Assembly: GCA_902799075.1 (NCBI GenBank)
Contig: CADBYZ010000013.1
Span: 1 to 32,075 of the forward strand
Source of the DNA: Oscillospiraceae bacterium
Lineage (GTDB): Bacteria > Bacillota > Clostridia > Oscillospirales > Oscillospiraceae
Direction: 5' to 3'
Length of the DNA stretch: 32,075 bases
A program made the position numbers and the translations under genes. Below are positions 2,559-6,216 of this stretch, in pieces; the first letter of the stretch is position 1, and each line of letters starts with the position of its first letter. The notes under the pieces were generated by a model. The model was not told the origin of the DNA. It made no database searches and saw only the letters and a program-made list of their open reading frames with translations.

Positions 2559-2989
2559 ACTTCAGTCCTCCTCTTTCCATTCCTCTTACTGTCTGCGCGC
2601 TGTATCTTCTCTTTCCTGCGCCGCACTGCTTTCTCGTTTCTCTTCTCAAGCTCCGCCGCAAGCTCTCCGTAGCGTTCGGGATCGGCCGCTTTAAGGAGCT
2701 TTGCCAGAGCGTTTGCAAAGCCGATATCGGTCACCGCCGCCATGGAGCAGTCGGCAATGCCGAAGGCGGAGGCAAGCTCTAAGCGCGTATAGTGCACGCT
2801 CTGCAGCAGCACGCGGCGGCCGTTTGAGACGTTTTCCGCCTTGCTCCGGGCGTTGTCGTTTATGTCCGCGCTGAGGATCAGCAGCTTTGCCTTGCCGTCC
2901 CGGACGGCGTCACAGGCGTTGTCGGTGCCGGGCTCCACGGCGCGGGCCCGGCGCATGAGGCCAAGCAGGCCAAGGGCTTTATCCTCCAT
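2555..2989 (-). CDS. ylxQ: L7Ae/L30e-family protein YlxQ
   Basis: A 144-residue protein of the L7Ae/L30e/Gadd45 RNA-binding fold, found between ylxR and infB in most Firmicutes. Members bind kink-turn RNAs; the cellular target of YlxQ is uncertain. The N-terminal part ([31 protein letters not shown] in general form, about residues 6-38) and the ADINDNA segment fit the fold. The last 30 residues are a Lys/Arg-rich tail ([15 protein letters not shown]) that probably adds nucleic-acid affinity. The start overlaps the end of ylxR by 11 nt and the stop overlaps the infB start by 3 nt, indicating translational coupling. Confidence 0.85.
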
Positions 2990-3251
2990 CCTGCGCCTCC
3001 ATTTCCTGTTCCAGACGCTCGTAGATCTCCGGCGGGATCTGGGCGGAAAAGGCCCGTTCCAGCGCTCTGGCCCTGACGGCCTTTTTCAGGCACTGGGCGC
3101 TGCGGCACACATAGGCCCCGCGTCCCGGCGCCTTGCCCTTAAAGTCCAGGCTGATCTCCCCCGCCGGGGAGCGCACAACACGCACAAGCTCACGCTTGGG
3201 CTTCATTTCACGGCAGCCAAGGCACTGCCTCATCGGTATTTTCTTTTCCAT
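2979..3251 (-). CDS. ylxR: YlxR/RnpM RNA-binding protein
   Basis: A 90-residue DUF448 protein. The motif CLGCREMKPKREL (about 9-21) and the signature GRGAYVC (43-49) are diagnostic. The B. subtilis homologue has been reported to bind and modulate RNase P. An AGGAGA site precedes the ATG at 3251. It normally sits about 15 nt after nusA; here 221 nt separate them, and that gap contains a structured repeat (3320-3469). It overlaps ylxQ by 11 nt. Confidence 0.88.
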   Translation of the reverse strand: MEKKIPMRQCLGCREMKPKRELVRVVRSPAGEISLDFKGKAPGRGAYVCRSAQCLKKAVRARALERAFSAQIPPEIYERLEQEMEAQDGG

Positions 3252-3319
3252 TGGCGCCGTTCTCCTAAAAACAATCAGATATAACTTATTGCGAAAGGCC
3301 GAATCTTCTCGCCCGTTAG

Positions 3320-3469
3320 GAATTCAAATCGTTTTTGAGGGAGCTTTGCTTTCTCAAAAACCCCCTGAGCCGAGCTTTGCGAGGCCTCGCGCCGACCAAA
3401 CACGGCGTGTCACGCGCCGCCGTGTGCGATAAGCGCGAGTCTCTCGATTGCGAACCTTGTTCGCAATCG
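3320..3469 (-). repeat. structured intergenic repeat, copy 1
   Basis: Read on the minus strand this element has: a hairpin CGATTGCGAA/TTCGCAATCG (3469-3445, loop CAAGG); a core helix CTCGCGC (3439-3433) pairing with GCGCGAG (3392-3386); inside it a conserved 7x7 internal loop TTATCGC / TTGGTCG; an inner stem ACACGGCG/CGCCGTGT (3425-3400); then a stem GTTTTTG...CAAAAAC with an inner AGC-AAA-GCT hairpin (3361-3331); and a terminal ATTTGAATT. Copy 2 at 5159-5314 has the same conserved parts but different, still complementary, variable stems. The 7-bp sequence GAATTCA occurs at both edges (3320-3326 and 3469-3475). It lies inside the nusA operon, in the direction of transcription. Confidence 0.75.
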
Positions 3470-3472
3470 AAT

Positions 3473-4525
3473 TCATGCCTCGGACTCGGGCTTGATGTCG
3501 ATCTTGAAGCCGGTGAGCTTCGCGGCCAGGCGCGCGTTCTGGCCCTCCTTGCCGATGGCAAGGGAGAGCTGGGAGTCGGGCACGACGACCCGGCAGCTCT
3601 TGCCGTCTTCCAGCATGGTGACGCTCACGACCTCGGAGGGAGACAGCGCCGCCGCGATATATTCCTCGGGCACCTCGCTGTATTTCACGATGTCGATCTT
3701 CTCGCCGCCGAGCTCGTTGACGATGCTTGCAACGCGCCCGCCCTTGGGGCCGACGCAGGAGCCGATGGGGTCAACATCGGGGTCTGCCGACCAGACGGCC
3801 ATCTTTGTACGGCTGCCCGCCTCGCGGGCGATGGACTTGATCTCCACGGTGCCGTCATAGATTTCCGGCACCTCCAGCTCGAACAGGCGCTTGACAAGGC
3901 CCGGATGGGTGCGGGAGATAAGCACCTGGGGGCCGCGGGTGGAATTTCTGACCTCGACCACGTAGACCTTGATGCGGTCGCCCTCGCGCAGGGGTTCGGT
4001 CTTGATGCGCTCGTTGGGGGCGAGCATGGCCTCGGTATACTCGCTGTTGGAGGAGATGCGGATGGAGACGCTGCCGTTTCTCGGCTCGATGTGGGAGACG
4101 ATGCCGGTCAGGATCTCATGCTCCTTGGAGGTAAACTCCTCATAGATGATGCCGCGCTCGGCCTCGCGGATGCCCTGGATGATGACCTGCTTTGCGGCCT
4201 GGGCGGCGATGCGCCCGAACTTCTTGGTCTCCACGGGGACATGCAGCTCGTCGCCGACCTTGGCGCGCTTGTTGATCTTCTTTGCGGCCTCCAGAACGAT
4301 CTCGTGGCTGGGGTCCTCGACCTCGTACACGACGGTCTTGATGACGTTCATCTCGATGCGCTTCTTGTCCTCCTCGAGGATGATTTCCACATTGTCCTCG
4401 CACTCGGGATTGTCGCGCCGGAAGGCGGCAAGCATGGCCTGCCGGATCTTGTCGTACATATAATTGCGGGGAATGCCCTTTTCTTTTTCGATGTCCTCTA
4501 TGGCCTCAAAAAAATCTGCATTCAT
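3473..4525 (-). CDS. nusA: transcription termination/antitermination factor NusA
   Basis: NusA binds RNA polymerase and nascent RNA, promoting pausing, intrinsic termination and rRNA antitermination. The 350-residue protein has the short Firmicutes form: polymerase-binding N-terminal domain (1-125), S1 domain (about 135-202), KH1 with IGSCVGPKGGRV (254-265) and KH2 with LAIGKEGQNARLAAKL (322-337). It lacks the acidic C-terminal repeats of proteobacterial NusA, as expected. The ATG at 4525 has a GGAG about 11 nt upstream and lies 32 nt after rimP. The TGA is followed within a few bases by the first hairpin of the repeat element, which may affect readthrough into ylxR-infB. Confidence 0.96.
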   Translation of the reverse strand: MNADFFEAIEDIEKEKGIPRNYMYDKIRQAMLAAFRRDNPECEDNVEIILEEDKKRIEMNVIKTVVYEVEDPSHEIVLEAAKKINKRAKVGDELHVPVETKKFGRIAAQAAKQVIIQGIREAERGIIYEEFTSKEHEILTGIVSHIEPRNGSVSIRISSNSEYTEAMLAPNERIKTEPLREGDRIKVYVVEVRNSTRGPQVLISRTHPGLVKRLFELEVPEIYDGTVEIKSIAREAGSRTKMAVWSADPDVDPIGSCVGPKGGRVASIVNELGGEKIDIVKYSEVPEEYIAAALSPSEVVSVTMLEDGKSCRVVVPDSQLSLAIGKEGQNARLAAKLTGFKIDIKPESEA

Positions 4526-4557
4526 TTTTTATAATCTCCATTTCTGAATACGTCTTC

Positions 4558-5013
4558 TTATATAGAAACATGCAGCTTCACGAGGGCGATTTTGCCCTTT
4601 TCAAAGCGCTGCTCGCTGCCGCCGGTCTCGATGGTCACATTGCCGTCGTCGTAGGATTTGAGGGTGCCGACGAAGGACTTGCTGCCGTTTATGGGCTGGT
4701 AGAGGCGAAGCTCCACCTCGCTGCCGAGAAACTGCTCATAGTCCGACGGACGCTTGAGCTCCCGCTCCGCGCCGGCAGAGCCCACCTCAAAGACATAGCT
4801 GTCGGGGATGGGGTCCGCCTCATCGAGCATGGGGTCAAGCCTGCGGCTGATGCGCTCGCAGTCGTCAATACCGAGACCGCCTTCCTTATCCACGAGGATG
4901 CGCAGATACCAGGTGCCGGCCTCGCGCACATACTCCACGTCCCAGAGCGTGCAGCCCTCTTCGTCGACGACAGGCTTTGCCAGCGCCGCGACCTTTTCCG
5001 TGATCTTGCTCAT
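4558..5013 (-). CDS. rimP: ribosome maturation factor RimP
   Basis: A 151-residue RimP (YlxS), needed for late 30S assembly around S12. The N-terminal alpha/beta domain carries the WDVEYVREAGTWYLRI and IDDCERISRRLD segments; the C-terminal SH3-like barrel has FVGTLKSYDDGNVTIE. The family motif usually written VSSPGxxRPL is divergent here (VGSAGAERELK, about residues 77-87). It is the first gene of the nusA operon. A promoter (5113-5141) and an intrinsic terminator (5061-5087) lie upstream, so its leader may be attenuated. Confidence 0.92.
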   Translation of the reverse strand: MSKITEKVAALAKPVVDEEGCTLWDVEYVREAGTWYLRILVDKEGGLGIDDCERISRRLDPMLDEADPIPDSYVFEVGSAGAERELKRPSDYEQFLGSEVELRLYQPINGSKSFVGTLKSYDDGNVTIETGGSEQRFEKGKIALVKLHVSI

Positions 5014-5060
5014 GTTTTCATCACCACATTAACAATTAATTAGGAGCGCAAAAGTCTCAC

Positions 5061-5087
5061 AAAAAAGAGTGGGTGAAAACCCACTCT
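5061..5087 (-). terminator. intrinsic terminator / attenuator in the rimP-nusA leader
   Basis: On the minus strand AGAGTGGGT-TTTC-ACCCACTCT forms a perfect 9-bp stem followed by a run of U residues (A-tract 5061-5066 on the plus strand). It lies about 20 nt after the probable start of transcription from the promoter at 5113-5141 and about 50 nt before the rimP ATG. It could end carboxypeptidase transcripts, but its position right after a promoter fits attenuation of the nusA operon. Confidence 0.85.
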
Positions 5088-5112
5088 GACAATACCAAAA
5101 CCTTACTGTAAG

Positions 5113-5141
5113 ATAATAGCACGAAACGCCGTATAATGCAA
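5113..5141 (-). promoter_or_regulatory. sigma-A promoter for rimP-nusA-infB
   Basis: On the minus strand TTGCAT (5141-5136), a 17-nt spacer and TATTAT (5118-5113). Transcription would start near 5106 and pass through the palindrome CTTACTGTAAG and then the terminator hairpin at 5087-5061 before reaching rimP. Confidence 0.7.
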
Positions 5142-5158
5142 GCCTTTTTTGACATCGT

Positions 5159-5314
5159 CGTTTCACAAAAATGCCCTGATGGCATTTTTGCGAAACGAGG
5201 GGCACTCGCGCTTATCGCAGCGGGCTTAGGCCCGCTTTGGTCGGCGCGAGGCCTCACACGGTTCGGCTTATGGTGTTTTTGCCAAGGCAAAGCCCTGTCA
5301 AAAACGTATTTGAA
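5159..5314 (+). repeat. structured intergenic repeat, copy 2
   Basis: On the plus strand: hairpin CGTTTC-a-CAAAAATGCC paired with GGCATTTTTG-c-GAAACG (5159-5197); core helix CTCGCGC (5205-5211) with GCGCGAG (5244-5250); internal loop TTATCGC / TTGGTCG identical to copy 1; inner stem AGCGGGC/GCCCGCT (5219-5236); stem GTTTTTG/CAAAAAC (5275-5305) enclosing GGC-AAA-GCC; then ATTTGAATT. The inner stems differ from copy 1 in sequence but not in pairing. The element is oriented opposite to its flanking genes. Confidence 0.75.
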
Positions 5315-5382
5315 TTGTTTTTCGCCTTGCGAGGCGAAAAATCAGAGAGGTGTTCTCCTCTGAACTCCCCCGCTGAAAACTG

Positions 5383-6216
5383 TCAATATTCAAAATCCGG
5401 GAAGTAGTGCGCGTAGAATTCCTCGTAGCACAGGCCCTGCTCCATGATGAAGGTCGCGACCTCGCGGCCTACGTAACGGTAGTGCCAGGGCTCGTCCCAG
5501 CCGGTCAGCAGGAGCTTGCGCGTGGGGTAGCGCTTGATGAAGCCGTACTCGGCGCAGTGCTCGTCCAGCCATTTGAACAGCTCCTGGTTCATGTCCTCGT
5601 ACACCAGGCGCTGGCGGTTGCGGTCCAGGATGTCCACGCACAGGCCGAGCTGGTGCTCGCTGGCCCCGGCGGGCGCGGTGATGGACTTGGCCTTCTCGGC
5701 GGCCTCCTGGTAGATGGGGTCGGTGTAGTCGACCTGCTTGCCGCCCGCCATCTCGTAGGCGATCTGGCTGGCCTTGGAGTTATACACATGGGCCTGATAG
5801 GAGTAGGAGCGGTAGGCGCCGGCGATGAAGTAGTCGAGCCCCGCCGCCTCGATCGCGTCCAGGAACGCGTCCAGGTACGGCATGTACTCGGTGCTGTACA
5901 TCATGTAGCGCGTCCGCTCGATCTTGGAGACCTCCGGCTCATAGGCCGAGGAGAGGAGGTTATTGTTGTTGACGATCTGCAGATAGGTGTTGTCCTCGAA
6001 GTCCTTGGTGGTGAGCTTGGGCCAGATGTCCTCCGTCACGACAGGCTCGGGGGTGACGTTCGTGTCGGCAAAGTTGATGCCGTCCGTGCGGACGAAGCCG
6101 CCCTCGCTGCCGCCGAAGATGATGGTGGCGCTGTTTTCCATGCGGGACAGGACAATGGTATAGAGCACAAGGCTCAGGGCAAACATGGTCAGGATCCAGA
6201 GCGTCTTTTTCTTCAA
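5383..6216 (-). CDS. membrane-anchored D-Ala-D-Ala carboxypeptidase, VanY-like (M15B)
   Basis: The 277-residue protein has an N-terminal membrane anchor (about 5-23), a linker, then an M15B zinc peptidase domain. Zinc and catalytic residues are visible: SEHQLGLCVD (H188, D195) and DEPWHYRYVG (E242, H245), with the substrate-side motif AGAYRSYSYQ (133-142). Such enzymes trim the terminal D-Ala from peptidoglycan stem peptides outside the membrane. The start is a TTG at 6216 with GGAGG 9 nt upstream; the upstream promoter is at 6257-6285. It is divergent from sigK. No vanRS or van ligase genes are nearby, so a resistance role is not indicated. Confidence 0.88.
   Translation of the reverse strand: MKKKTLWILTMFALSLVLYTIVLSRMENSATIIFGGSEGGFVRTDGINFADTNVTPEPVVTEDIWPKLTTKDFEDNTYLQIVNNNNLLSSAYEPEVSKIERTRYMMYSTEYMPYLDAFLDAIEAAGLDYFIAGAYRSYSYQAHVYNSKASQIAYEMAGGKQVDYTDPIYQEAAEKAKSITAPAGASEHQLGLCVDILDRNRQRLVYEDMNQELFKWLDEHCAEYGFIKRYPTRKLLLTGWDEPWHYRYVGREVATFIMEQGLCYEEFYAHYFPDFEY

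Follow-up and report, generated by a model that had tools for sequence, protein, structure and literature searches.

We analysed a 32,075-nt stretch of DNA from an Oscillospiraceae bacterium (GenBank assembly GCA_902799075.1, contig CADBYZ010000013.1, positions 1 to 32,075), referred to herein as the window, which carries two copies, A and B, of a structured intergenic repeat made of four hairpins, P1 to P4 (Table 1). A first-pass annotation of the window, made from its letters alone, had described both copies and read their compensating stems as the mark of selection on a folded RNA or a folded single-stranded DNA. Both copies lie where that annotation had placed them, and the shared blocks and alternative stems that it listed were found in the sequence; as it had also reported, the first hairpins are unrelated, the one that occupies the P1 place in copy B having a different sequence. 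Both copies fold much better than shuffled sequences (z = -5.9 for copy A and z = -8.4 for copy B). The last base of the nusA stop codon, TGA, is at 3473, and copy A may extend from there to about 3284, as the sequence at 3284-3296 matches the 3' terminal repeat of the family in degenerate form, differing by 3 substitutions and lying about 10 nt closer than is usual. The elements are probably longer than first annotated. Copy B has a nearly identical orthologue in the relative G027.

Table 1. Features of the window around copies A and B (core, match to the covariance model described in the text).
Feature	Position	Strand	Remarks
Copy A	3284..3473	-	between nusA and ylxR, sense to rimP-nusA-ylxR-infB; outer 3' limit 3284 tentative
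Copy A core	3323-3470	-	covariance-model match
Copy A hairpin P1 (TCGATTGCGAA..TTCGCAATCGA)	3444..3470	-	holds 5' terminal repeat; starts 2 nt past nusA stop codon
Copy A hairpin P2	3386..3439	-	conserved 7x7 internal loop TTATCGC/TTGGTCG
Copy A hairpin P3 (GCCTCGC-AAA-GCTCGGC)	3369..3385	-	
Copy A hairpin P4 (GTTTTTG...GCAAAGC...CAAAAAC)	3331..3361	-	
Copy B core	5158..5313	+	covariance-model match; between vanY-like gene and rimP, antisense to both
Copy B hairpins	P1 5158-5198, P2 5205-5250, P3 5251-5267, P4 5275-5305	+	
Copy B alternative 3' module (GTTTTTCGCC..GGCGAAAAATCAGAG..)	5314..5371	+	recurs with core in other genomes
ylxR	2979..3251	-	Pfam YlxR
nusA	3473..4525	-	Pfam NusA_N, KH_5
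rimP	4558..5013	-	Pfam RimP_N, DUF150_C
VanY-like D-alanyl-D-alanine carboxypeptidase	5383..6216	-	Pfam VanY

The covariance-model search of the host genome and its relatives that the first-pass annotation had proposed was made with a model (R1) built on 15 host copies. It returned 28 matches in the genome of the host (G000; 116 contigs, 2.41 Mb) and detected the element in 20 of the 36 further same-genus genomes searched, with a maximum of 42 copies per genome. With copy B as BLAST query the host genome gave 27 matches at E<=10 and 22 at E<=0.01 (copy B itself counted), and the exact core motif occurred 15 times in it, against none for the reversed control. The window by itself holds only two copies, as chance similarity of two hairpin clusters would have it, and this explanation is refuted by the 28 genome copies and the many in relatives. 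Further afield, the model found copies in 1 of 23 genomes from other families of the order, and order-wide occurrence was sparse (18 of 295 genomes, host included, and 15 of 149 genera), with ten candidates scored per genome and several of the matches weak (28-50 bits). A scan of named genomes with the core pattern gave at least 113 stretches; the 80 matches listed in that scan were all named as Clostridia, Clostridiales, Eubacteriales, Oscillospiraceae or Ruminococcaceae, and a ruminant, deer or rabbit sample was named for 23 of these 80. One of our sets of copies consists of 80 of the at least 113 stretches and, having been chosen via the exact core motif, under-represents diverged copies. 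No Rfam family matched at the gathering threshold (four sub-threshold matches all lay outside copies A and B), consistent with the earlier remark that no named family was recognised. We found no match in phages with copy B as query, in plasmids with copy A as query or in IMG/VR with the exact core pattern, and our searches of open-access literature listed no paper describing the family. The family is frequent in uncultured Oscillospiraceae assemblies, including ruminant, deer and rabbit ones, is found inserted within core operons such as nusA-ylxR-infB, and is absent from Rfam; annotating it would prevent its renewed reporting as a candidate regulatory RNA.

Across these copies the element has a G+C content of about 0.5-0.6 and a modular anatomy. 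In P1, the 5'-most block, TCRATTGCGAA pairs with its reverse complement as a hairpin, P2 has the form CTCGCGC-TTATCGC-stem-TTGGTCG-GCGCGAG, P3 is GCCTCGCnnnGCTCGGC or GGTTCGCTTTGCTCACC, and P4 is GTTTTTG...GCAAAGC...CAAAAAC, followed by GATTTGAA. The right side of the P2 loop is altered in several genomes of other families, with the other blocks kept. In several species of the genus the element extends through a CCCTTCGGGG hairpin to a terminal TTTCGCAATCGGCTA, which repeats the 5' end TAGTCRATTGCGAAA in inverted form, and copies that keep their 3' end have terminal inverted repeats of ~15 bp (5' TAGTCRATTGCGAAA, 3' TTTCGCAATYGGCTA). Full-length copies measure about 195 nt, and one of them, folded as single-stranded DNA, gave z = -7.6. 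The 3' terminal motif was recognisable in 48 of 164 distinct copies, with 9 expected from shuffled flanks, and in 27 of the 48 its offset was 43-46, counted within a searched flank that opens 8 nt ahead of the model end. At L018/L023, L014, L150, L408, L409 and L414, P2 is replaced or split by a second hairpin-rich module (AACGGAAGGAACGGATATGGAGC and related sequences), giving versions of 348-387 bp with unchanged ends. At about 271-304 of L411 (G034:C54:11370-11403) there is a solo 34-bp palindrome in which the two terminal repeats meet head to head; it lacks a body and shows no evident target duplication. A genome of another family carries two tandem copies whose starts are 278 bp apart (G294:C73:12257-12688).

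In part of the copies that keep their 3' end, the sequence immediately ahead of the element is repeated immediately behind it, as a target duplication of 10-11 bp. Duplication scores of at least 10 were reached by 8 of 37 testable copies, with 0.3 expected from shuffled pairing, and scores of at least 8 by 10 of the 37, with 0.5 expected. Examples are AAACAGTCTAT, TATTTGAGTAT and AATATTGAAAA, and an exact 11-bp duplication, AAAACAGGATC, surrounds the 387-bp version that carries the extra module (L409). Occupancy also varies between near relatives. When the flanks of 22 host copies were queried against 0.8 Mb of G027 sequence (best flank matches 90-98% identical), 12 host sites were located, of which 6 held the same element, 3 were empty and 3 held other sequence; the empty sites are the nusA-ylxR junction, with 21 nt from stop to start, L003 and L005. 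In 28 of 30 nusA-ylxR loci compared (the host and one truncated locus omitted), the gap was at most 36 nt in 12, so that the earlier description of this junction as usually tight holds, with G027 as the closest relative. At this junction the family is also present in reverse orientation in G071 and as a chimeric copy in G079, and L146, L164, L166 and L173 have a different hairpin-rich sequence there. Given the target duplications and the empty or variably occupied sites, the element moves.

Some further spacers in these comparisons are unusual. The nusA-ylxR junction (L145-L173) is a hot spot, with an apparent open reading frame (ORF) of about 1 kb in the G022 and G070 spacer. At two sites where the host has the element (L009 and L018), G027 has a stretch of CTCCCCC(TTTGGGGGAG) type instead (L313 and L305), as if spacers were exchanged between near relatives.

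The copies very probably form one family of non-autonomous DNA transposons that resemble miniature inverted-repeat transposable elements (MITEs), with stems whose pairing appears to be kept as DNA rather than for an RNA function. They are short, dispersed, multi-copy and intergenic, and the family shows terminal inverted repeats, target duplication and insertion polymorphism; the family is new, the kind of element known. Prokaryotic MITEs such as Correia/NEMIS, ERIC and RUP, in the parts of the accounts drawn on here, are ~100-200 bp long with terminal inverted repeats and target duplications (PMC10969869, PMC2229807). The element is like them, as there described, in its size of about 100-200 bp, its intergenic dispersal, its strong folding and its ends often with TA; it is unlike them in that its body consists of several hairpins in a row instead of a single end-to-end one, and in not being AT-rich. 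By their description, the BOX elements of Streptococcus pneumoniae are also similar, being modular structured repeats that cluster and nest with other repeats (PMC3049150); the words covari- and compensat- are absent from the text of that paper.

The stems of the family covary strongly. Two alignments of 87 and 84 rows (171 rows, 164 distinct copies) were made to the model and thus lean towards its structure. Both-sided changes were found at 38 of 44 pairs in the 87 copies, the observed covariation values were reached by 0 of 500 shuffles, and sliding the partner columns abolished the signal, which bears out the covarying stems and conserved structure of the first-pass description. With the P4 interior omitted, one-sided changes to another standard pair numbered 40 (19 + 21) and both-sided ones 760 (362 + 398), whereas a control of signal recognition particle (SRP) RNA from 30 same-genus genomes had 65 one-sided and 43 both-sided changes; exceptions and changes alike are counted as sequences, not events. 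Exceptions within the stems numbered 43 G.T and 51 A.C over both alignments when the P4 interior was omitted, a choice made after seeing the counts with it included, the P4 interior having conserved mismatches. The SRP control had 160 G.U and 0 A.C, and is one orthologous family whose structure was predicted from the same alignment, which disfavours A.C columns. Also without the P4 interior, copies sense to both neighbours (79) had 21 G.T and 20 A.C exceptions and antisense copies (41) had 12 and 14.

An RNA selected in place should prefer G.U on the transcribed strand. Since this is not so here, selection as RNA is not supported, and the stem pairing does not look as though it were kept by such selection at the insertion site. 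Judged by their covariation only, the stems would have been read as RNA; with the transposition hallmarks, the exception counts and the presence of both orientations added, that half of the earlier claim is not supported, and support goes to its alternative, a folded single-stranded DNA. Judged as an Rfam-type family, the element has covarying helices, and it lacks tolerance of G.U over A.C, a consistent strand and an Rfam match. It offers a clear case of strong covariation, the usual mark of a functional RNA, in a mobile DNA element, and the nearly wobble-free, strand-symmetric character of that covariation is the feature of most interest. As a discriminator we suggest comparing G.T with A.C exceptions, one-sided with two-sided changes, and sense with antisense copies.

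Orientation and distances to stop codons were called with a codon scorer trained on eight window genes, and 17 of the 164 copies without a confident call were dropped. Among the 147 copies placed, those within tandem gene pairs comprised 79 in sense and 41 in antisense orientation, and the rest lay between divergent (19) or convergent (8) genes; an earlier version of the placement gave 43 sense, 26 antisense, 12 divergent and 5 convergent (n = 86). The sense bias is real, yet far from exclusive. In 57 of 82 cases P1 starts 0-8 nt past the point where the upstream sense gene ends with its stop codon. In an earlier count of 104 stop calls, 40 were over 40 nt; the stop codon was the last triplet before P1 in 16 cases of the earlier count, and it was TAG in 7 of these 16, TAG being the usual first bases of the element. 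At L067, which has a clear duplication, the pre-insertion frame would extend 18 nt further, and the element appears to supply the stop codon. Tight spacers alone may explain much of the proximity to stop codons. For repetitive extragenic palindromic (REP) sequences of E. coli, ribosome stalling is reported when they lie no more than 15 nt from a stop codon (PMC12306157, which cites Liang et al. 2015, in the part consulted), and by analogy a ribosome-stalling effect of the element near stop codons is possible.

Several observations weigh against a MITE-like transposon without RNA function. A usable 3' end for the duplication test was present in only 37 of 164 copies, 27 of these 37 scored below 8, and copies A and B themselves have no clean duplication. 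The empty sites are not base-perfect, as adjacent spacer bases and even a stop codon have changed too. The sense excess of 79:41 (p = 0.0007) is not predicted by purely neutral insertion, and G.T slightly exceeds A.C when the P4 interior is included (149 vs 123; 76 vs 63 in the first alignment and 73 vs 60 in the second), a single P4 pair with a conserved G.U supplying 56 of the 76 in the first alignment. The TTATCGC/TTGGTCG loop of P2 and the AAA of the P4 loop are strongly conserved within the genus, implying further recognition or function. Finally, the scans made found no autonomous element or transposase with the ends of the element.

The sense excess, the conserved internal-loop bases and the conserved G.U of P4, together with the strong covariation and the adjacency of P1 to stop codons, would suit a structured cis-acting RNA, a riboregulator or leader that was spread by transposition and kept for a fold that regulates its neighbours. 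We consider this improbable, as there is no G.U preference outside the P4 interior, sense and antisense copies behave alike, both orientations occur at the same junction, no Rfam family matches, and, with 90-98% identity in the best flank matches between the two genomes, occupancy differs at 6 of the 12 sites that could be compared. Still less credible is a repeat of the type of REPs and bacterial interspersed mosaic elements (BIMEs) moved by a REP-associated tyrosine transposase (RAYT, Y1). The element is palindromic and often within 15 nt past a stop codon, like REP/BIME as far as the source was consulted (PMC12306157), and unlike them it is longer and has terminal repeats and target duplications. 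The host has a divergent Y1 gene (G000:C65), and in G061 one copy precedes such a gene by about 470 nt, a further gene separating the two. When the same-genus genomes are grouped post hoc, weak Y1 matches are seen in 10 of the 20 that bear the element and in 1 of the 16 that do not; for any Y1 match the figures are 12 of 20 and 8 of 16. In the 10 Y1 loci scanned, however, there was one partial model match (E=0.054), and target duplications are not expected of Y1 transposition. The Y1 genes that were read, divergent and RAYT-like (L096 1300-1995, G000:C65; L410 919-1413, G061:C119), hold or adjoin a different palindrome, GTAGGGGCG, and these palindromes with their Y1 genes are apparently a separate REP family.

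How the arms of a mobile DNA element stay complementary is a separate matter. Arms rewritten mainly by template switching during replication, which would make the covariation largely mutational, with no selection on structure required, and is compatible with a MITE-like transposon, are a real though lesser possibility. Changes are both-sided with few intermediates, as in RNA hairpins maintained by template switching, where compensatory changes without intermediates are described in the part of the source drawn on (PMC8794818); those hairpins belong to RNA genes, unlike the present mobile DNA with its nearly strand-symmetric exceptions. In P1 the right arm matches the left at 28 of 29 variant positions and the 3' terminal arm at 0 of 29, a comparison biased towards this result since the 3' terminal arm was located by its consensus. 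Inversion of loops, which template switching would be expected to leave, gave a mixed picture, suggestive for P1 and P3: loops with their reverse complement also present numbered 80 in P1 (39 reversed, 54 complemented) and 132 in P3 (67 reversed, 111 complemented), whereas P2 had no excess (13 vs 11 and 20) and the P4 loop was inverted in 0 of 170 (127 being AAA). Like the P2 and P4 loops, the six orthologous sites occupied in both G000 and G027 count against template switching, as four are nearly identical and two differ in whole blocks. At L006, P2 and P3 differ as a block, with the P1 stem and P4 unchanged; at L022 the difference lies in the P2 interior, and P3 and P4 are missing from the host copy. 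Exchange of blocks and correction templated by the hairpins both fit, and we make no firm choice between them.

For the MITE-like transposon favoured here, a transposase encoded elsewhere would cut at the terminal repeats and move the element, and the stems would be kept paired as DNA, through correction templated by the hairpins or exchange of blocks, through a need for intact palindromes in movement, or through both. More speculatively, and rather doubtfully, the element may pass through a single-stranded or cruciform DNA state when moving, with each hairpin rewritten there, arm from arm. If true, this would be a transposon with its own palindrome-correcting evolution and strong wobble-free covariation without RNA function, and wobble-free, strand-symmetric covariation would become a general test separating DNA-hairpin elements from structured RNAs in genome scans. 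Operons such as nusA-ylxR would tolerate the element, coding sequence being avoided; no terminator-like site was found in copy A by pattern scan, which fits tolerance inside an operon with infB. Near stop codons the element may still, like REP hairpins, alter translation or mRNA processing.

The scans for the element's ends covered 28 PF01797 (Y1), 11 of 11 PF01609 (DDE_Tnp_1), 3 of 3 PF00872 (Transposase_mut) and 8 of 13 PF13751 (DDE_Tnp_1_6) loci, and gave many single matches with at most 3 mismatches and no evident matched inverted pair. DDE_Tnp_1, Transposase_mut and DDE_Tnp_1_6 were thus not supported as partners at the loci scanned. Pairs of terminal repeats 250-5000 bp apart occurred nine times in 2.36 Mb scanned. 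Seven measured 317-425 bp, and two were longer, at 1041 bp (L388) and 4970 bp (L252); the six ORFs searched inside the longer pairs included ruvX and V-type ATPase genes and, in Pfam, no transposase. As these genomes are fragmented assemblies, which easily lose insertion sequences, the missing partner is weak evidence. A duplication of 10-11 bp is reminiscent of IS231-type IS4 elements, a resemblance rather than a test.

Two further features of the window concern the ends of transcripts. BLAST matches to copy B reached about 5371 in G083, G027:C26, G067, G061, G035 and G033, and its type of 3' module is also present in L022 and L064. In the window the minus strand of this module has a terminator-like site (5342-5363) directly after the vanY-like gene, found in the same pattern scan, which gave only 3 such sites in the region against 2.1 expected. 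Upstream of rimP, at 5066-5087 on the minus strand, lies an intrinsic-terminator-like hairpin, AGAGTGGGT-TTTC-ACCCACTCT, followed by a T-run; it could be the end of the upstream gene's transcript or an attenuator for the rimP-nusA genes.

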